From Actinomycetota bacterium (GTDB lineage: Bacteria; Actinomycetota; Acidimicrobiia; Acidimicrobiales; Ilumatobacteraceae), in assembly GCA_016213625.1 (NCBI GenBank), contig JACQZZ010000042.1, positions 62,001 to 126,000 on the forward strand: DNA of 64,000 nt, written 5' to 3'. Below, in pieces: positions 55,943 to 62,906 of the stretch. The translations under genes were made by a program, and so were the position numbers. Within the stretch, counting starts at the first letter, position 1. Each line of letters opens with the position of its first letter. The notes beneath the pieces are model-generated. The model was not told the origin of the DNA and did not search any database. It saw nothing but the letters and a program-made list of their open reading frames with translations.

Positions 55943-57028
55943 TCACAGCACGACCACGGAACGGAGGACCTCGCCGCGTTCCATCTTGTGGAATGCCTCC
56001 TCGACGGCGTCGAGCGAGATGGTCTCGGACACGAACTTGTCGAGCGGCAGGCGACCCTGCTGATGGAGCGTGACCAGCATGGGGAAGTCGCGCGAGGGCA
56101 GGCAGTCGCCGTACCAACTGCTCTTCAGCTGGCCACCCCGGCCGAACACTTCGATGAACGGCAGCTCCAGGGTCATGTCGGGGCGGGGCACACCGACGAG
56201 CACCACGGTGCCGGCCAGGTCGCGTGCGTTGAACGCCTGCTTGTAGACCTCGGGATGGCCGATGGCCTCGATGCACACATCGGCGCCGTTGCCGCCCGTG
56301 ACCGACTTGATGTACTCCACGGGGTCGGTGGTCCTCGAGTTGACGGTGTGGGTGGCGCCGAACTGCTTGGCCAGTTCGAGCTTCCGGTCGTCGATGTCGA
56401 CGGCGATGATGGTGTGGGCACCGGCGAGCAGCGCGCCGGCGATGGCCGCATCACCCACGCCGCCACACCCGAACACCGCGACGGAGTCGCCTCGGCCGAC
56501 GTTGCCCGTGTTGATGGCGGCGCCGATACCGGCCATCACACCGCAGCCCAGCAGACCAGCGGTGGCGGCGGGCACGCCGGGATCCACCTTCGTGCACTGG
56601 CCGGCGGCGACGAGGGTCTTCTCCACGAATGCACCGATGCCCAGCGCCGGCGACAACTCCGTGCCGTCCTCCAGGGTCATCTTCTGGGTGGCGTTGAAGG
56701 TGCTGAAGCAGTACCACGGGCGACCGCGCAGACAGCTACGGCAGGTGCCGCACACGGCGCGCCAGTTGAGGATGACGAAGTCGCCGGGCTGCACGTTGGT
56801 GACGCCCACGCCGACGGACTCGACCACGCCTGCGGCCTCGTGTCCGAGCAGGAAGGGGAACTCGTCGTTGATGCCGCCTTCGCGGTAGTGCAGGTCGGTG
56901 TGGCACACACCGCACGCCTGCACCTTGACCACGGCCTCGCCCGGGCCGGGATCCGGGATCACGATCGTCTCGATCGTCACCGGCGCGCCCTTGCTGCGCG
57001 CCACCACTCCACGAACCTTCTGAGCCAT
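55943..57028 (-). CDS. mscR: S-(hydroxymethyl)mycothiol dehydrogenase
   Basis: The 361-residue protein is a class III-type zinc alcohol dehydrogenase: catalytic zinc site [14 protein letters not shown] with [14 protein letters not shown], structural zinc loop with four Cys ([15 protein letters not shown]), and the [20 protein letters not shown] block found in mycothiol-dependent enzymes. The NAD fold is [13 protein letters not shown]. It oxidises the adduct of formaldehyde and mycothiol and may also reduce S-nitrosomycothiol. ATG 57028 has an AGGAGG site at 5 nt spacing. TAAACT (57082-57087) could be the -10, so this gene has a normal leader, unlike many neighbours. Confidence 0.92.
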
Positions 57029-57119
57029 TGTCCCCTCCTGCACCACGACTCAAGTCCTGGTGCGCGCGTGTACGGGGGGTGAGTTTAGTGCTCCTGGTCA
57101 GCAACGGCAGTGGCCTTGA

Positions 57120-57767
57120 TCAGCGACGGCGAGATTCCAGTCCGGCCAGCAGTGCGTCGAGCGCGTCATCGAAGCGACGGTCGGCGGAGCCCTGATACAG
57201 GTGGGACGCCACCGCCGCGATGGCAGGGAACTCGTCGGCGGGAAGCGCCGCGTAGTCGCTGCGCCAGGTGCGGTAGGTGGCCTCGCGCGTGGCCACCGGT
57301 TGCGATGCCAGTGCGGCGTCGATGGTGGCGGATCCGACGGTGAACTCGATGAGGGCGTGATACGCCCGGGCCGCTGCCGGCGCCCGGAACCCTCCCTTGG
57401 CGAGCTCTCGTAACAGCGCCTCGGTGATGGCCACCTCGTTCTGCAAGCGGGTGGGCGCCGAGCGCACGAACACCGCCAGCCGCGGTTGCCGCAGCTGCGC
57501 CTGTCGAAGCTCACGGCACAGGCGACGCACGGCCGTGCGCCAGCTCTCCCGAGGGCGCGGCGCGACGTCGACGTCGGCCAGGAAGTGGTCACCGACCGCG
57601 CGGTGCAACTCCTCCATGTTCCGGAAGTGCCGGTACAGCGCGGTGGGATCGCAGCCCAGCTCGTCACCCAACGCGCGCACGGTCAGTTGGTCCACGCCTG
57701 CACGCGCGGCCAGAACGACCGCGGCCGAGATGATGCGCTCTCTGCTGAGCGCCGCAGGGCGACCCAT
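57120..57767 (-). CDS. TetR-family regulator
   Basis: The 215-residue protein has the TetR N-terminal domain: ERIISAAVVLAARAGVDQLTVRALGDELGCDPTALYRHFRNMEELHRAVGD (residues about 9-58), then a helical ligand domain resembling the TetR_C/TetR-AcrR actinobacterial type. Its ATG shares one base with the stop of the ACAD-fold gene, so both form an operon. It is the natural candidate to bind the palindrome at 58965-58981 upstream of that operon and of the divergent hydrolase. It is likely released by an aromatic or acyl-CoA ligand. Confidence 0.9.
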   Translation of the reverse strand: MGRPAALSRERIISAAVVLAARAGVDQLTVRALGDELGCDPTALYRHFRNMEELHRAVGDHFLADVDVAPRPRESWRTAVRRLCRELRQAQLRQPRLAVFVRSAPTRLQNEVAITEALLRELAKGGFRAPAAARAYHALIEFTVGSATIDAALASQPVATREATYRTWRSDYAALPADEFPAIAAVASHLYQGSADRRFDDALDALLAGLESRRR

Positions 57768-58933
57768 CAGTCGAACAACCGGGCGCGGCCGAGGCGCTCG
57801 GTGCACACCTCTGCGCTCCACGGCAGCATGGTGCTGCCGAGGCGGGCGTCGCGGTACATGCGCTCGAGCGGAAGGTTCTTCTGCATCGACTGACCGCCGC
57901 ACACCTTGATCGACAGGCTCGCCACCGCCGCCGCGTGCTCCATCACGGTGATGGCCGCAGCCCAGCCGCGCACCAGGTCGTCCTCGCTCGGGTCGATGGT
58001 GGCCTCGTCGACGGCGCGGTACATCATCGCCCGCGACTGCTCGTGCTGCAGTTGCATCTGCGCCCAGCCCACCTGCTTGATGGGATGGTCACGACGCGAG
58101 CCGGCCACCTGGCCGGGCATCTCGCCACGCAGGTACAGGCGGGTCGCGTCGATGATGCCGCCGGTGAGCCCCAGATAGCTGGGACACAGGCTCAGGAACA
58201 GCCACGGGTAGCGATTCGCCGCCTGGTTGTACATGCCGGCCGGCATCCACTCGTTCGAGTGGGGCACGAACACGTCCTTCATCAGCAGCGTGCGCGACAC
58301 GGTGCCGCGCATACCCAGCGGGTCCCAGTCGTCGACGATCTCCACGCCCTGGCCGTCGGACGGCACGCCGAGGAGACGGATCTCGTCCTCGCCGGGCACC
58401 TGGCAGGTGACGTTGTAGAACGTGGCGGCGCCGGAGAGCGACGCGAAGATCTTCCGGCCGGTGACCAGCCAGCCACCGTCGACGGGCACCGCCTTGGTGG
58501 CCACACCGGCGGTGGCGCCCGGCGCGAGACCCTCGGAGAACGGCTGGCTGTGGATGTCGCCACGCTCCACCACCCCGCGATACATCGCGGTGCGGGTCTC
58601 CTCGTGGCGTTCACGCTGCTCGGGCGTCATGTCGAGCAGGTCGCTCACCTGTCCGCACCACAGCATGGTCGCGTTGTGCATGTTGAAGGTGAGGCCGGTG
58701 GCGCCGCAATGGCGACCGACCTCCTCGCTCACGCGCACGTAGTCGGCGTAGCTGGCGCCCATCCCGCCGTACCGGCTGGGGATGCTCACCGACAGCAACC
58801 CGTTGGCACGGAAGTCGGCGAAGTTCTCGTGGGGGAAGCTGGCCTCCAGGTCGTACTTCACCGCCCGCTCGCGCATCGCGGGTCCCATCGCCCGCACCAG
58901 CCCCACCATCTCGTCACGCGTCACCTCGGCCAT
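57767..58933 (-). CDS. Acyl-CoA-dehydrogenase-fold flavoprotein, probably a monooxygenase or oxidase
   Basis: The 388-residue protein has the ACAD fold: SIPSRYGGMGASYADYVRVSEEVGRHCGATG, YNVTCQVPGEDEIRLLGVPSD, WDPLGMRGTVSRTLLMKDVFVP and a C-terminal VCGGQSMQKNLPLERMYRDARLGS. In true dehydrogenases a Glu follows as Y-E-G-T; here the region reads LGSTMLPWSAEVCTERLG, without that Glu. ACAD-like flavin monooxygenases such as DszC also lack it. A group D flavin monooxygenase acting on an aromatic or heteroaromatic is thus an attractive possibility; a reductase would be needed. ATG 58933 lacks a clear Shine-Dalgarno site. Confidence 0.8.
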   Translation of the reverse strand: MAEVTRDEMVGLVRAMGPAMRERAVKYDLEASFPHENFADFRANGLLSVSIPSRYGGMGASYADYVRVSEEVGRHCGATGLTFNMHNATMLWCGQVSDLLDMTPEQRERHEETRTAMYRGVVERGDIHSQPFSEGLAPGATAGVATKAVPVDGGWLVTGRKIFASLSGAATFYNVTCQVPGEDEIRLLGVPSDGQGVEIVDDWDPLGMRGTVSRTLLMKDVFVPHSNEWMPAGMYNQAANRYPWLFLSLCPSYLGLTGGIIDATRLYLRGEMPGQVAGSRRDHPIKQVGWAQMQLQHEQSRAMMYRAVDEATIDPSEDDLVRGWAAAITVMEHAAAVASLSIKVCGGQSMQKNLPLERMYRDARLGSTMLPWSAEVCTERLGRARLFD

Positions 58934-58964
58934 GGCGGGACATCAGACCAGAGCGTGCGCAGTT

Positions 58965-58981
58965 TGTCAACGGTGTTGACA
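58965..58981. promoter_or_regulatory. Perfect palindrome, candidate TetR operator
   Basis: TGTCAAC-GGT-GTTGACA is a perfect 7-bp inverted repeat in the gap between divergent ATGs 58933 and 59022. It is in the correct place for the coupled TetR regulator and overlaps a TTGACA hexamer (58976-58981) on the plus strand. Confidence 0.6.
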
Positions 58982-58987
58982 TCACGA

Positions 58988-59015
58988 TTGACACCAGCGA
59001 TCGGCCTGCCATACT
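58988..59015 (+). promoter_or_regulatory. Promoter of the hydrolase/NicX-like operon
   Basis: TTGACA (58988-58993) and CATACT (59010-59015) are separated by 16 bp, and CATACT lies 6 nt from ATG 59022. This is the best complete -35/-10 pair in the window and predicts a leaderless transcript, with the palindromic operator directly upstream. Confidence 0.65.
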
Positions 59016-59021
59016 CGTGCC

Positions 59022-59825
59022 ATGCGCGAGCCCCTCGACGTCGACTGCGACACGTTCGCGTGGCGCGAGTCGGGTACCGGCGAACTGGTGGTGCTGCTGC
59101 ACGGCCTCGGCGGGAGCCGCATCTCGTGGGAGCCGCAACTGGCGACGCTCGGCCGATCGCGGCGTGTCGTCGCCTGGGATCTTCCCGGCTACGGCGCCGC
59201 CGCTCCCCTGCCCGATCAGCCGCTCACGTTCCGAGCGCTCGCAGATGCGGCAGCGGACCTCATCCGCGCGCTCGGGGCCGAACGCGCGCACGTGGTGGGC
59301 ATCTCGATGGGCGGCATGATCGGCCAGTACCTCGCTGCCTGGTCTCCGCACCGGGTGCGTTCGCTCACGCTGCTGTCGAGCAGTCCGGCGTTCGGCCTCG
59401 ACGGCACGCGACCCGACGAGTGGCGGGCGGCACGGCTGGCGCCGCTGGACCAGGGCCTCGAGCCGGCGGACTTCGCCGACCGGGTGCTGGGAGCCATCAG
59501 CGGGCCGCAGATCAGCTCTGCCGCGATGGCCGGCCAGAAGGCAGCCATGGCTCGCGTCACCGGGGCGGCGCTGCGTCGCAGCATCGACTGCCTCGTCACC
59601 CACGACTCGCGTCCGTTGCTGCCGGCCATCCAGGCGGCGACGCTGGTGATGGTGGGCGAACGCGACGGGGAGACGCCGGTGCAGTACTCGCAGTATCTCG
59701 TCGACCACCTTCCCCACGCGCAGCTGGTCGTCGTGCCCGGCGCCGGGCATCTGCTGAACGTGGAGTCCCCCGACGTGGTGAACGAACACATCGAACGACA
59801 TCTCGCAGCCGTGGAGGCAGCATGA
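59022..59825 (+). CDS. Alpha/beta hydrolase, NicD-like (N-formylmaleamate deformylase type)
   Basis: The 267-residue protein has the oxyanion-hole motif LLHGLGGSRISW, the nucleophile elbow VVGISMGGMIG (S95) and a C-terminal GAGHLLNVE (catalytic His); the acid Asp probably lies in VMVGERDGETP. It is followed with a 4-bp overlap by a NicX-like gene. In Pseudomonas putida, NicD, also an alpha/beta hydrolase, removes formate from the product of NicX. The pairing suggests the same job here, but a hydrolase for a different ring-opened product is possible. It starts at a leaderless-type promoter. Confidence 0.78.
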   Translation: MREPLDVDCDTFAWRESGTGELVVLLHGLGGSRISWEPQLATLGRSRRVVAWDLPGYGAAAPLPDQPLTFRALADAAADLIRALGAERAHVVGISMGGMIGQYLAAWSPHRVRSLTLLSSSPAFGLDGTRPDEWRAARLAPLDQGLEPADFADRVLGAISGPQISSAAMAGQKAAMARVTGAALRRSIDCLVTHDSRPLLPAIQAATLVMVGERDGETPVQYSQYLVDHLPHAQLVVVPGAGHLLNVESPDVVNEHIERHLAAVEAA

Positions 59826-60877
59826 CCCAGGACCGAACCGAGTGGCGCTACATCGCCGCGTTCGCCGCGCACTTCGCCCGCTGCGGGCTGCACGAGGGCG
59901 AGAAGGTGGCGCTGCTCAGCGAGTCGCAGAGCCGGCCGTCGCTGGTCGAGACCGCACGCCTCGCCGCGCAGTCACTGGGCGGCAGGGTGTTCGACATCGT
60001 GGTGCCCACGCCACCGGCAGCGCATGCCGTTCCCATCCGCAGCACCGGCGCATCCCAGGCCATCGCTCACCATGACGCCGTCATCGCCGCACTCGTCACG
60101 AGCGATCTCGTCATCGACTGCACGGTGGAGGGGCTGCTGCACTCGCCCGAGTTGGGCCGCATCCTGGCCGGCTCGGCCCGCGTGCTGATGATCTCCAACG
60201 AGCACCCGGAGGTGCTCGAGCGCCTGCCGTGGGACGACGACCTGCCGCGTCGAGTGGCGCTGGGTCACGAGTGGCTGCGCACGGCGAACACCATGCGCGC
60301 CACCAGCGCGGCGGGCACCGACCTCACTGTGCAACTGGCGGGCGGGTTCAGCGCCGGGAGCACCGGCCTCACCGACGGTCCCGGCTCCATCGCCCACTGG
60401 CCCGGAGGGCTGGTGCTCACCTTCCCGGCCGCGCACTCGGTGAACGGAACGGTCGTGCTCGCCCCGGGCGACATGAACCTCACGTTCAACCGCCTCGTGG
60501 AGTCGACCGTGACCCTTCGAATCGAGGACGACCACATCGAGGCCATCGAGGGTGACGGCGTCGACGCCATCCTGTTCCGTTCGTACCTGTCGGCGTTCGG
60601 CGATCGCGAGAGCTACGCCACCAGCCACGTCGGGTGGGGCATGAACCAGTTCGCACGCTGGGACGCCGCGCAGCTGTACGACAGGCGAGAGACATGGGGC
60701 ACCGAGGCGCGTGCGTACGCGGGCAACTTCCTCTACTCCACCGGTGCCAACGAGACGGCAGGGCGCTTCACGGCCGGTCACTTCGACCTCCCGATGCGCA
60801 ACTGCACCGTCACGCTCGACGACCGCGTGGTGGTGAGCGAGGGCGTGCTCGCTGCCGAGCTGGCCCCGCCCGCGTGA
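59822..60877 (+). CDS. NicX-like ring-cleavage dioxygenase (M29-like fold)
   Basis: The 351-residue protein matches the aminopeptidase-T-like family that includes 2,5-dihydroxypyridine 5,6-dioxygenase NicX: HEGEKVALLSESQS, ALVTSDLVIDCTVEGLLHS, SHVGWGMNQFARWDA and FTAGHFDLPMRNCTVTLD. The likely iron ligands are H269, H320 and D322. As I recall, NicX of P. putida uses H265, H318 and D320, so spacing and length (about 350) agree closely. The enzyme would split the pyridine ring between C5 and C6. A general M29 aminopeptidase is less likely because Glu/His metal residues of that family are not evident. Its ATG overlaps the hydrolase stop. Confidence 0.8.
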   Translation: MTQDRTEWRYIAAFAAHFARCGLHEGEKVALLSESQSRPSLVETARLAAQSLGGRVFDIVVPTPPAAHAVPIRSTGASQAIAHHDAVIAALVTSDLVIDCTVEGLLHSPELGRILAGSARVLMISNEHPEVLERLPWDDDLPRRVALGHEWLRTANTMRATSAAGTDLTVQLAGGFSAGSTGLTDGPGSIAHWPGGLVLTFPAAHSVNGTVVLAPGDMNLTFNRLVESTVTLRIEDDHIEAIEGDGVDAILFRSYLSAFGDRESYATSHVGWGMNQFARWDAAQLYDRRETWGTEARAYAGNFLYSTGANETAGRFTAGHFDLPMRNCTVTLDDRVVVSEGVLAAELAPPA

Positions 60878-60896
60878 CCGACCGTAGGCTCCGCGC

Positions 60897-61985
60897 ATGA
60901 CGAACGACCGGGTCATCGAATCGGCGCAGGTGGTGCTGCCGTGCACCGATCCGGCGTCCGCCACCATCGGCTTCTTCACCGGCATCGGCTTCAAGGTGCG
61001 CACCATCGTGCCGGCCGATCACCCGCGCATGGTCGTGCTGAGTGGGCACGGCCTCACGGTACGGCTGGAGGTGGGAGCCGACGCCGCACCCGGACGCCTC
61101 CGTCTGCTGTGCACCGACGGGGCACCCGGCGAGCTGGTCGCCCCCAACGGCACCGTCGTGGAGTTCGTGCCGGCACACCCCCCGATGGACATCCCGCCGC
61201 TGCAGGAGCGGTTCGTCGTCACCCGCATGCCCCGCGGCGAGGGCGACGCCGCGTTCGGTGAGGGTCGCTCCGGGATGCGCTACCGCGATCTCATCCCCGA
61301 CCGCCTCGGCGGACGCTTCATCGCGTCGCACATCCTCATCCCCGACGGCGGGCCCGTGGGCGACTACGTGCACTTCCACAACATCCGCTTCCAGATGATC
61401 TATTGCTACCGCGGTTGGGTGAAGGTCGCCTACGAAGACCAGGGCGAGCCGATGCTGCTCACCGAGGGCGACTGTTTCCTGCAACCCTCCACCATCCGTC
61501 ACCGGGTGCTCGAGGCGAGCGATCGCATGCAGGTCATCGAAGTCGGCTGCCCGGCCGAGCACGAGACGTGGGGCGACCCCGAGATGACCCTGCCCACCGG
61601 CCGCACGTTGCCCGACCGGGGGTACGGCCCCGACGGGCACCGATTCGCCTTCCACCAGGCCGCGCATGCGTCATGGGCACCCTGGCGTGTGGCCGGGTAC
61701 GAGTACCGCGACACCGGTATCGGCGCGGCCATGGACGGAGTGGCGGGCTGTCGCGTGGTACGCCCCGTCGGCTCGCCCGGCGCCGTCACCACCAGCCACA
61801 CGGCCGAGTTCGTCTTCACCTTCGTGCTCGATGGCGCCGTCACGCTGCAACGCGAGCACGACGCGCCGTTGCGGCTGGACGAGGGCGACTCGTTCGTGGT
61901 GCCGGCACACACGAACTACACGCTCAGCGAACCCACTGCGAACCTGCAACTCCTCGACGTCACCCTCCCCGCCGACGTCGCCTGA
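60897..61985 (+). CDS. Bicupin protein with N-terminal VOC-like domain
   Basis: The 362-residue protein has an N-terminal region (SAQVVLPCTDPASATIGFFTGIGFKV) resembling half of a glyoxalase/VOC domain. It is followed by two cupins: HFHNIRFQMIYCYRGWVKVAYEDQG, GDCFLQPSTIRHRVLE, and later FVFTFVLDGAVTLQRE with EGDSFVVPAHTNY. The first cupin has His and Glu/Gln suitable for a metal; the second is metal-poor. It may be a ring-cleavage dioxygenase, isomerase or regulator in the same aromatic pathway. TAGGCT (60885-60890) lies 6 nt before ATG 60897, so it may have its own promoter 19 bp after the NicX-like gene. Confidence 0.75.
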   Translation: MTNDRVIESAQVVLPCTDPASATIGFFTGIGFKVRTIVPADHPRMVVLSGHGLTVRLEVGADAAPGRLRLLCTDGAPGELVAPNGTVVEFVPAHPPMDIPPLQERFVVTRMPRGEGDAAFGEGRSGMRYRDLIPDRLGGRFIASHILIPDGGPVGDYVHFHNIRFQMIYCYRGWVKVAYEDQGEPMLLTEGDCFLQPSTIRHRVLEASDRMQVIEVGCPAEHETWGDPEMTLPTGRTLPDRGYGPDGHRFAFHQAAHASWAPWRVAGYEYRDTGIGAAMDGVAGCRVVRPVGSPGAVTTSHTAEFVFTFVLDGAVTLQREHDAPLRLDEGDSFVVPAHTNYTLSEPTANLQLLDVTLPADVA

Positions 61986-61994
61986 CCCGTGACG

Positions 61995-62906
61995 TCAGTC
62001 CAGGGCTTGGAGGACCTGGCCGAGCCATTCGATGGCGGGTTGGGTGATGGGGTCCACCACCAGTTGCACGTGCGCGGCGCCGGCGTGCGCGAAGGCGGCG
62101 AGTTGCTCGGCCAGCTCCTGGGGCTCGCCGCGCAGCGGTTGGATACGCGCCATCGACGGGTCGCCCATGGTGCGGCCCACTCCCCCGGGCACCTGCACGT
62201 ACACGCACGCCGTTGCCTCCACTTCGTCGGGATCGCGCCCGACCGCATCGGTGCGAGCACGCACATCGGCGACCACTTCGGCGAAACCCTCGGGGGTGTT
62301 GCCGTAGATGCTCCACCACACGTTCCACGAGTGCACGTGCGGCAGCGTGATGGAGAGCATGCGTGGGCTGTTCGAACCCACCATCAACACCGGTCCACCC
62401 GCTCGCGCCGCGGGCGGATCGATGACACATCGGTCGACCGCGTAGTAGGTGCCCGAGTGCGTGACCATTTCGCCGGCCAGCAGCCGGCGCAGCACGTGGA
62501 ACGCCTCTTCGAACCGGTCGACCCGATGATCGAACGGAAGACCGAAGGCGCGGTACTCGCGCTCGTTCCAACCCGAGCCCACGCCGAGCACCAGTCGCCC
62601 GTCGGACACCGCGTCGATGGTGGCGGCCATCTTGGCGATCATCGCCGGGTCGTGGAACCCCAGCGACGACACCAGCGAGCCGAGCTGCACCCGTTCGGTG
62701 ACCGCCGCGAGCGCGGCGAGTGAGGTGTACACCTCCCACGGTCCGCGAGCGGTGCCGTCGGGCAGGTCGTAGAGCAGGTGATCGCCCAGCCAGACGGAGT
62801 CGAAGCCCACGGCCTCGGCCGCCCGGGTCATCGAGATCAGCTCGGGCCAGGGAACACGCCGTTCCACTTCTGGGAGCTGCACACCGATCTTCAGGGGCCG
62901 AGTCAT
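61995..62906 (-). CDS. LLM-class, probably F420-dependent, oxidoreductase
   Basis: The 303-residue protein has the luciferase-like barrel: KIGVQLPEVERRVPW, AEAVGFDSVWLGDHLLYD, AAVTERVQLGSLVSSLGFHDPAMIAKMAATIDAVSDGRLVLGVGSGW and a FGLPFDHRVDRFEEAFHVLR region. This is the F420-dependent branch common in mycobacteria and acidimicrobia. It would reduce or oxidise a small organic molecule. It converges on the bicupin gene with a 9-bp gap. TATGCT (62913-62918) is exactly 6 nt from ATG 62906. A link to the neighbouring catabolic genes is possible but unproven. Confidence 0.88.
   Translation of the reverse strand: MTRPLKIGVQLPEVERRVPWPELISMTRAAEAVGFDSVWLGDHLLYDLPDGTARGPWEVYTSLAALAAVTERVQLGSLVSSLGFHDPAMIAKMAATIDAVSDGRLVLGVGSGWNEREYRAFGLPFDHRVDRFEEAFHVLRRLLAGEMVTHSGTYYAVDRCVIDPPAARAGGPVLMVGSNSPRMLSITLPHVHSWNVWWSIYGNTPEGFAEVVADVRARTDAVGRDPDEVEATACVYVQVPGGVGRTMGDPSMARIQPLRGEPQELAEQLAAFAHAGAAHVQLVVDPITQPAIEWLGQVLQALD

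Follow-up and report, generated by a model that had tools for sequence, protein, structure and literature searches.

A conserved gene module around a NicX-family clade that lacks the substrate-binding glutamate of NicX

The 64-kb window analyzed here, i.e., the whole stretch of contig JACQZZ010000042.1 between positions 62,001 and 126,000, derives from an actinobacterial genome assigned to the Ilumatobacteraceae (4.5 Mb, 117 contigs, ~92% complete). It carries two divergent units around a homologue of NicX, the dioxygenase that opens 2,5-dihydroxypyridine in nicotinate catabolism (Table 1). Leftward, the gene of an acyl-CoA dehydrogenase (ACAD)-fold flavoprotein is followed by those of a TetR-family regulator, MscR and an MBL-fold protein; rightward, an alpha/beta hydrolase gene precedes those of the NicX-like protein and of a two-cupin protein, and an LLM gene converges on this unit. 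All open reading frames (ORFs) of an initial annotation of this DNA were recovered, and Pfam and NCBIfam confirmed the families that it had named (TetR, ACAD, alpha/beta hydrolase, two Cupin_2 domains, LLM, mscR and MBL-fold). Its coupled hydrolase/NicX-like pair also stands, with the two ORFs sharing 4 bases (59822-59825), as does a regulated locus. The likeliest start codon of the TetR gene is the ATG at 57767, not the listed GTG at 57902.

Table 1. Coordinates of the module and its neighbors within the 64-kb window
Feature	Position	Strand	Basis or remark
S-(hydroxymethyl)mycothiol dehydrogenase mscR, downstream, outside module	55943..57046	-	TIGR03451 671 bits, cut-off 512.9
TetR-family regulator	57120..57767	-	Pfam TetR_N + TetR_C_1; start overlaps ACAD stop by 1 base
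ACAD-fold flavin monooxygenase candidate	57767..58933	-	Pfam ACAD domains; Pro371 at dehydrogenase Glu position, MLPW motif
Palindromic operator candidate TGTCAAC-N3-GTTGACA	58965..58981	.	Between divergent operons
Promoter-like TTGACA-16-CATACT	58988..59015	+	Consensus match
Alpha/beta hydrolase, enol-lactonase-like, not NicD	59022..59825	+	Triad S95/D215/H243; NicD profile; PcaDC/PcaD nearest
Candidate Fe(II) ring-cleavage dioxygenase of the Glu177-less NicX-family clade	59822..60877	+	PDB 7cn3, alignment, tree
Two-cupin protein, N-terminal stretch without family match	60897..61985	+	Pfam Cupin_2 twice; accessory, close relatives only
F420-type LLM oxidoreductase, neighbor	61995..62906	-	Bac_luciferase; TIGR03619 169.8 bits, cut-off 166.9

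The sole PDB match (E ≤1) of the protein encoded at 59822 is NicX (7cn3; phmmer E 5.8e-57), which aligns to residues 23-345 of 351 (323 residues) at 38-39% identity; there was no Pfam match at E 0.001 and no NCBIfam match. The iron pattern H269/H320/D322, already pointed out in the initial annotation, aligns with NicX H265/H318/D320 in the numbering of the NicX structure paper (PMC7910607). That annotation overlooked the fourth iron ligand, S306 (NicX S302), and the loss of NicX Glu177, whose position is taken by Ser180, whereas R293, H105 and H189 are kept. According to the same paper, Glu177 binds N1 and O1 of 2,5-dihydroxypyridine, the E177A and H189A variants show 2.7% and 6.9% of wild-type activity, respectively, and no substrate other than 2,5-dihydroxypyridine has been reported for NicX. 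Among 85 clade members compared by residue (the window protein and 84 loci), H105, H265, R293, S302, H318 and D320 are invariant and H189 is found in 84. Position 177 holds Ser in 53, Val in 14, Gly in 11, Thr in 4, Asn in 2, Ala in 1 and Glu in none. Fourteen other NicX-family loci, all plasmid-borne and selected by us, retain Glu177 in 12 cases, S302 in 14 and R293 in 13; the two with Gln177 (L053 and L164) may not be true NicX. H105 is replaced by Phe in 12 of these 14 loci and is therefore no general NicX marker and a poor test. Alignment and phylogeny thus identify the protein encoded at 59822 as homologous to NicX, though not as a canonical NicX. Since the residue with which NicX grips its pyridine is lost, the ring-opener probably acts on a ring other than the NicX substrate; going by its iron site, it should otherwise work as NicX does.

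In a tree of 68 rows, a branch supported at 100/100 separates the 43 sampled rows of this clade from all others; the clade's stem measures 1.03 changes per column. Long branches lead to L053, L164, L084 and L124 (Variovorax dokdonensis), and the sister placement of L053 is weak (81/37). Scanning with two clade-type peptide patterns returned at least 558 stretches encoding a relative, which suggests that the clade is probably large; the best-scoring 80 were tested, so that the tallies given here lean towards close members. Within these 80, the named relatives nearest to the locus come from metagenome genomes that bear the labels Actinomycetota, Acidimicrobiaceae and Ilumatobacteraceae. The clade protein also occurs in 19 of 349 sampled Burkholderiales genomes. 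A further group of actinobacterial NicX homologues from the same class (L007-L022 and L025-L030; 29-34% identity; 10 rows on the tree) was considered as NicX and rejected, as it forms a separate group and has Y, Q, E and A at the positions of H105, E177, R293 and S302; the alanine deprives it of the serine iron ligand.

The partners of the clade protein were charted in 90 loci: the 80 best-scoring ones, six from genomes (including the window's own, L043) and four from plasmids. Removal of duplicates (L032/L068, L033/L080, L034/L093) and of L126 and L129, which have no NicX row in the map though their proteins are clade members, left 85 distinct loci. An ACAD gene (>150 bits) lies no farther than 7 kb from the NicX-like gene in 63 of these, a hydrolase gene (>60 bits) in 66 and both in 56; both partners are present in 34 of the 50 loci flanked by ≥5 kb in either direction. 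Gene order and orientation differ between lineages, so this linkage is not merely inherited gene order. Linkage of the ACAD, NicX-like and hydrolase genes is conserved across phyla, and no ACAD gene was found near the 14 other NicX-family plasmid loci (flanks of 6-10 kb). Genes for glutamine-synthetase-like proteins (27 loci), TetR (24) and MarR (9) regulators also lie within 7 kb in the 85 loci; for the glutamine-synthetase-like neighbor, the genome encodes a 43% relative at another place.

Other genes that the initial annotation had placed in or beside the set fared less well. The two-cupin protein is confined to 8 of the 90 loci, i.e., the window and seven close relatives. The LLM gene does converge on the locus, and LLM hits within 7 kb occur in only 8 of the 85 distinct loci, six of them close relatives (L090 and L123 are not). 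The downstream mscR/MBL pair had been taken as a provision for a one-carbon product; mscR orthologues (≥89% identity) are limited to six loci, all close (L057-L060, L031 and the window), and beyond this shared gene order the one-carbon argument finds no support.

The ACAD-fold protein lacks the dehydrogenase glutamate, as had been noticed: the catalytic column holds Pro (Pro371 in the window protein) in every one of the 65 clade rows (61 distinct). Its PDB neighbors are 5gj7/5z8t (E 6e-38) and then, much lower, near E 1e-18, the FAD-dependent oxidoreductases 3m9v/4kcf, SCAD 2vig and the nitrososynthase 3mxl. In having this fold without the dehydrogenase Glu, it resembles the ACAD-fold oxygenases HsaA and DszC of NCBIfam and 3mxl of the PDB, from which it differs in scoring far under the HsaA and DszC cut-offs and in its own MLPW motif. 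Another likeness to these oxygenases, a flavin reductase gene close by in some relatives (≤7 kb from the NicX-like gene in 16 of the 85 distinct loci), supports the reading of the ACAD-fold protein as a putative oxygenase.

The hydrolase has its Ser95/Asp215/His243 triad conserved in all 69 rows (65 distinct). The initial annotation held that the gene pair mirrors NicD-NicX, which the profiles contradict: on a profile of seven nicD-type proteins, the window hydrolase scores 32.1 bits against 467-503 for the seven themselves, which in turn reach 61-79 bits on a clade hydrolase profile that gives 205-394 for clade rows. NicD is thus ruled out by reciprocal scores and, together with the loss of Glu177, this leaves N-heteroaromatic ring cleavage, the function first proposed for the locus, unproven. 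PcaDC (158.6 bits) and PcaD (122.5 bits, cut-off 255.85) are the best NCBIfam models, both below cut-off. The shared Ser-Asp-His triad likens the protein to the 3-oxoadipate enol-lactonase PcaD, and we read it as a candidate enol-lactonase-like or ester hydrolase. A 7-membered lactone intermediate, which the structure paper discusses for NicX catalysis, would suit such an enzyme.

The two divergent starts are separated by the palindrome TGTCAAC-GGT-GTTGACA, the only match in the window at ≤2 mismatches (0.15 expected) and the only one in the 4.5-Mb genome at ≤1 mismatch. Its core, GTCAAC-N2..3-GTTGAC, recurs in 16 of 20 divergent ACAD/hydrolase intergenic regions (window included), and 17 of the 21 core matches in 1.5 Mb fall inside the 5.0 kb of divergent intergenic DNA. 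The palindrome is a candidate binding site of the neighboring TetR protein. The promoter-like element ends 6 bases before the hydrolase ATG, and CATACT also stands 6-7 bases ahead of this codon in L031, L059 and L060; such proximity suggests a possibly leaderless hydrolase transcript.

Taken together, the locus is, on sequence grounds, part of a real, conserved module, and the NicX-family clade at its center does not pass the substrate-binding test of NicX. We consider it somewhat probable that this is a TetR-controlled catabolic module in which an oxygenated aromatic ring, though not that of 2,5-dihydroxypyridine, is processed in three steps. The ACAD-fold flavoprotein would hydroxylate the ring with reduced flavin from a separate reductase; the NicX-like Fe(II) dioxygenase would then add O2 next to the new hydroxyl, opening the ring; and the serine alpha/beta hydrolase would cleave the ring-opened or lactone product. 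In close relatives, the cupin might catalyze a further-downstream step or be accessory. The regulator would sit on the single palindrome between the divergent operons until released by substrate or product. We infer the reactions, their order, the binding target of the TetR protein and the substrate.

Neighboring genes in some bacteria hint at the substrate. Genes for tryptophan dioxygenase, kynureninase and arylformamidase (kynA/kynU/kynB) adjoin the module in the Pandoraea loci L110, L111 and L132 and in a further Burkholderiales locus (L193); kynU is linked in 4 of 106 distinct loci and not at the window locus. Tryptophan dioxygenase genes also lie near the module in Shinella (L051) and Acidimicrobiales (L109), and occur in 39 of 59 clade genomes or records of our choosing, 20 of them above cut-off. 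The window genome has one on another contig, as well as a kynureninase-like gene in two pieces in one frame, neither above cut-off. A PRK08255-family aryl-CoA 5-hydroxylase is encoded near the module in 6 of 106 distinct loci (L081, L189-L192 and L194, with truncation at the locus end in two); the L189 protein scores 1110 bits against a cut-off of 1078. By genome coordinates, PRK08255 is within 16 kb in 6 of the 19 Burkholderiales genomes with a clade gene. Above its cut-off, it is present in 23 of 45 clade genomes, again chosen by us, vs 0 of 14 controls, with weaker matches nearly everywhere; near the 14 other NicX-family loci, the sole match is partial (28%, in L162).

As targets, carbocyclic rings are at least as likely as N-heteroaromatic ones. 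Tentatively, we place first the 5-hydroxylated anthranilate/salicylate (2-aminobenzoyl) rings, carbocyclic analogues of 2,5-dihydroxypyridine, as a possible yet far from assured substrate class. More doubtful is the specific proposal of an unrecognized cross-phylum route for anthranilate ring opening, in which an ACAD-fold two-component monooxygenase would make 5-hydroxyanthranilate, free or as the CoA ester, and a NicX relative that has lost Glu177 and adapted to carbocycles would open the product. Both the 2-aminobenzoyl-CoA pathway and the conversion of anthranilate to 5-hydroxyanthranilate in Nocardia opaca (Cain 1968) are described in PMC4539516. Through the latter reaction, an actinomycete would obtain the proposed class of substrate; as recounted there, it was reported to proceed onward through gentisate, and the tie to the module is our own suggestion. 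Were the anthranilate proposal true, genes would be at hand for the 5-hydroxyanthranilate route reported from N. opaca in 1968, and an Fe(II)/Ser-ligand mechanism so far known for a pyridine ring alone would extend to a carbocycle. A single literature search on homarine/trigonelline catabolism gave no lead.

Several observations weigh against the module as reconstructed here and against its anthranilate version. In the ACAD-fold family, six ACAD controls (one HsaA-like) have Glu in two cases, Gly in two, a gap in one and Pro in one at the catalytic column, so that Pro is shared by a control; this comparison covered the one Glu position, and some ACADs use an alternative base position. No flavin reductase was detected among the scanned proteins of the window locus. 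One or both partners are missing within 7 kb in 29 of the 85 distinct loci, partly because of contig ends. Nor is the trio universal: nine Acidimicrobiia loci (L083, 5951-13505, and L070, L074, L079, L089, L097, L114, L120 and L128) have an agmatinase-family gene beside the NicX-like one, and a search for hydrolase relatives found none there. As to the substrate, the 28 Burkholderiales genomes examined include 15 with an above-cut-off kynureninase but only 4 in which the gene sits next to the module. In the window's lineage, the neighborhoods of tryptophan dioxygenase (L135) and of its counterparts in close relatives (L136-L138) gave no module-gene hits, which argues against a tight kynurenine link. 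PRK08255 does not exceed its cut-off in the window genome, though the same-genus genome G051 has one, and its NCBIfam name is salicylyl-CoA 5-hydroxylase, the 2-aminobenzoyl-CoA reading being our own. Finally, P450, HpaD-like and HpaE-like genes near the module in some Acidimicrobiales do not fit the anthranilate hint, outside which the glutamine-synthetase-like genes and the agmatinase-type loci also fall; substrates may differ within the clade.

Among the alternatives, the same three steps might act on another heterocycle, e.g., an N- or C-substituted pyridone for whose substituent the missing glutamate would leave room. Retention of H105 and of H189, which contacts the ring oxygen, and replacement of the N-H-binding Glu by small or neutral residues agree with this reading. 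We nonetheless regard it as rather unlikely, as no gene for making such a heterocycle was recognized at the loci read and some Burkholderiales neighbors belong to aryl-CoA and kynurenine metabolism. Unlikely, too, is a CoA-thioester route, in which an aryl-CoA ligase would act first, oxygenation at the CoA level and then ring opening would follow, and the ligases, the ACAD-fold protein and the hydrolase would all handle a CoA thioester. The gene of a related AMP-forming ligase occurs in 16 of 29 non-actinobacterial loci, beside the ACAD gene in several Burkholderiales ones, and PRK08255 acts, by its name, on aryl-CoA; however, no ligase was detected among the ten scanned proteins of the window locus, and the glutamine-synthetase-like genes mentioned above are mostly actinobacterial, some loci having both.

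An N-heteroaromatic pathway as in nicotinate catabolism, where NicX would open 2,5-dihydroxypyridine before formate is removed by a NicD-like hydrolase, is improbable. It would account for a true NicX homologue with a complete iron site and a hydrolase gene directly upstream, placed like the nicD-type gene in L054, L154, L158, L161, L162 and L165. Indeed, the nic/ndp clusters (monooxygenase, NicD, NicX, NicF and NicE; e.g., L054 and L162) likewise put the dioxygenase beside an alpha/beta hydrolase and often include a TetR or MarR gene. Their hydrolase and active-site signatures are nonetheless not those of the window clade; the latter has an ACAD-fold protein in place of their FAD-dependent monooxygenase and, at the window locus, neither a maleate isomerase nor a maleamate amidase. 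As to the absence of NicE and NicF noted in the initial annotation, a single-sequence query with NicE found no match in the ~92% complete genome, whereas that with NicF returned a 33-bit fragment, both searches having been run with no positive control. An upstream substrate other than nicotinate, suggested in that annotation, is supported here. An M29-type aminopeptidase, to which relatives owe nothing but database labels ('peptidase M29' in two plasmid clade members, 'leucyl aminopeptidase'), can be dismissed for the 59822 protein, given the match to NicX alone and the invariant iron ligands, and the initial annotation's preference over this family holds.

The catabolic module favored here was not found described in the literature searched (open-access PMC text). 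NicX stands out among iron dioxygenases by its serine ligand, and its sister clade keeps the iron site without the grip on the pyridone. It bears on a question of general interest, namely, whether the iron chemistry of NicX works on other rings. The carriers of the module include uncultured Acidimicrobiia, Burkholderiales and others.

Some variants of the locus deserve mention. Eight of the nine agmatinase-type loci also encode a class III transaminase, and an HsaA-like ACAD-fold gene follows in L083; these loci possibly represent a different pathway with the same ring-opener. Full-length relatives of the two-cupin protein are encoded on plasmids of Paraburkholderia, beside M20 peptidase, MFS and aminotransferase genes, and of Sulfitobacter, beside MarR, MFS and RND efflux genes (L149-L152); in these four loci, nothing within 12 kb is annotated as NicX or ACAD, and they offer no hint of a pathway. 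On rhizobial plasmids (L049, 15001-23376, and L050-L052), the module is carried with a glutamine-synthetase-family gene. The hydrolase of L049 is fused to a Polyketide_cyc2 domain, and both L049 and L050 have an APC permease gene as well.

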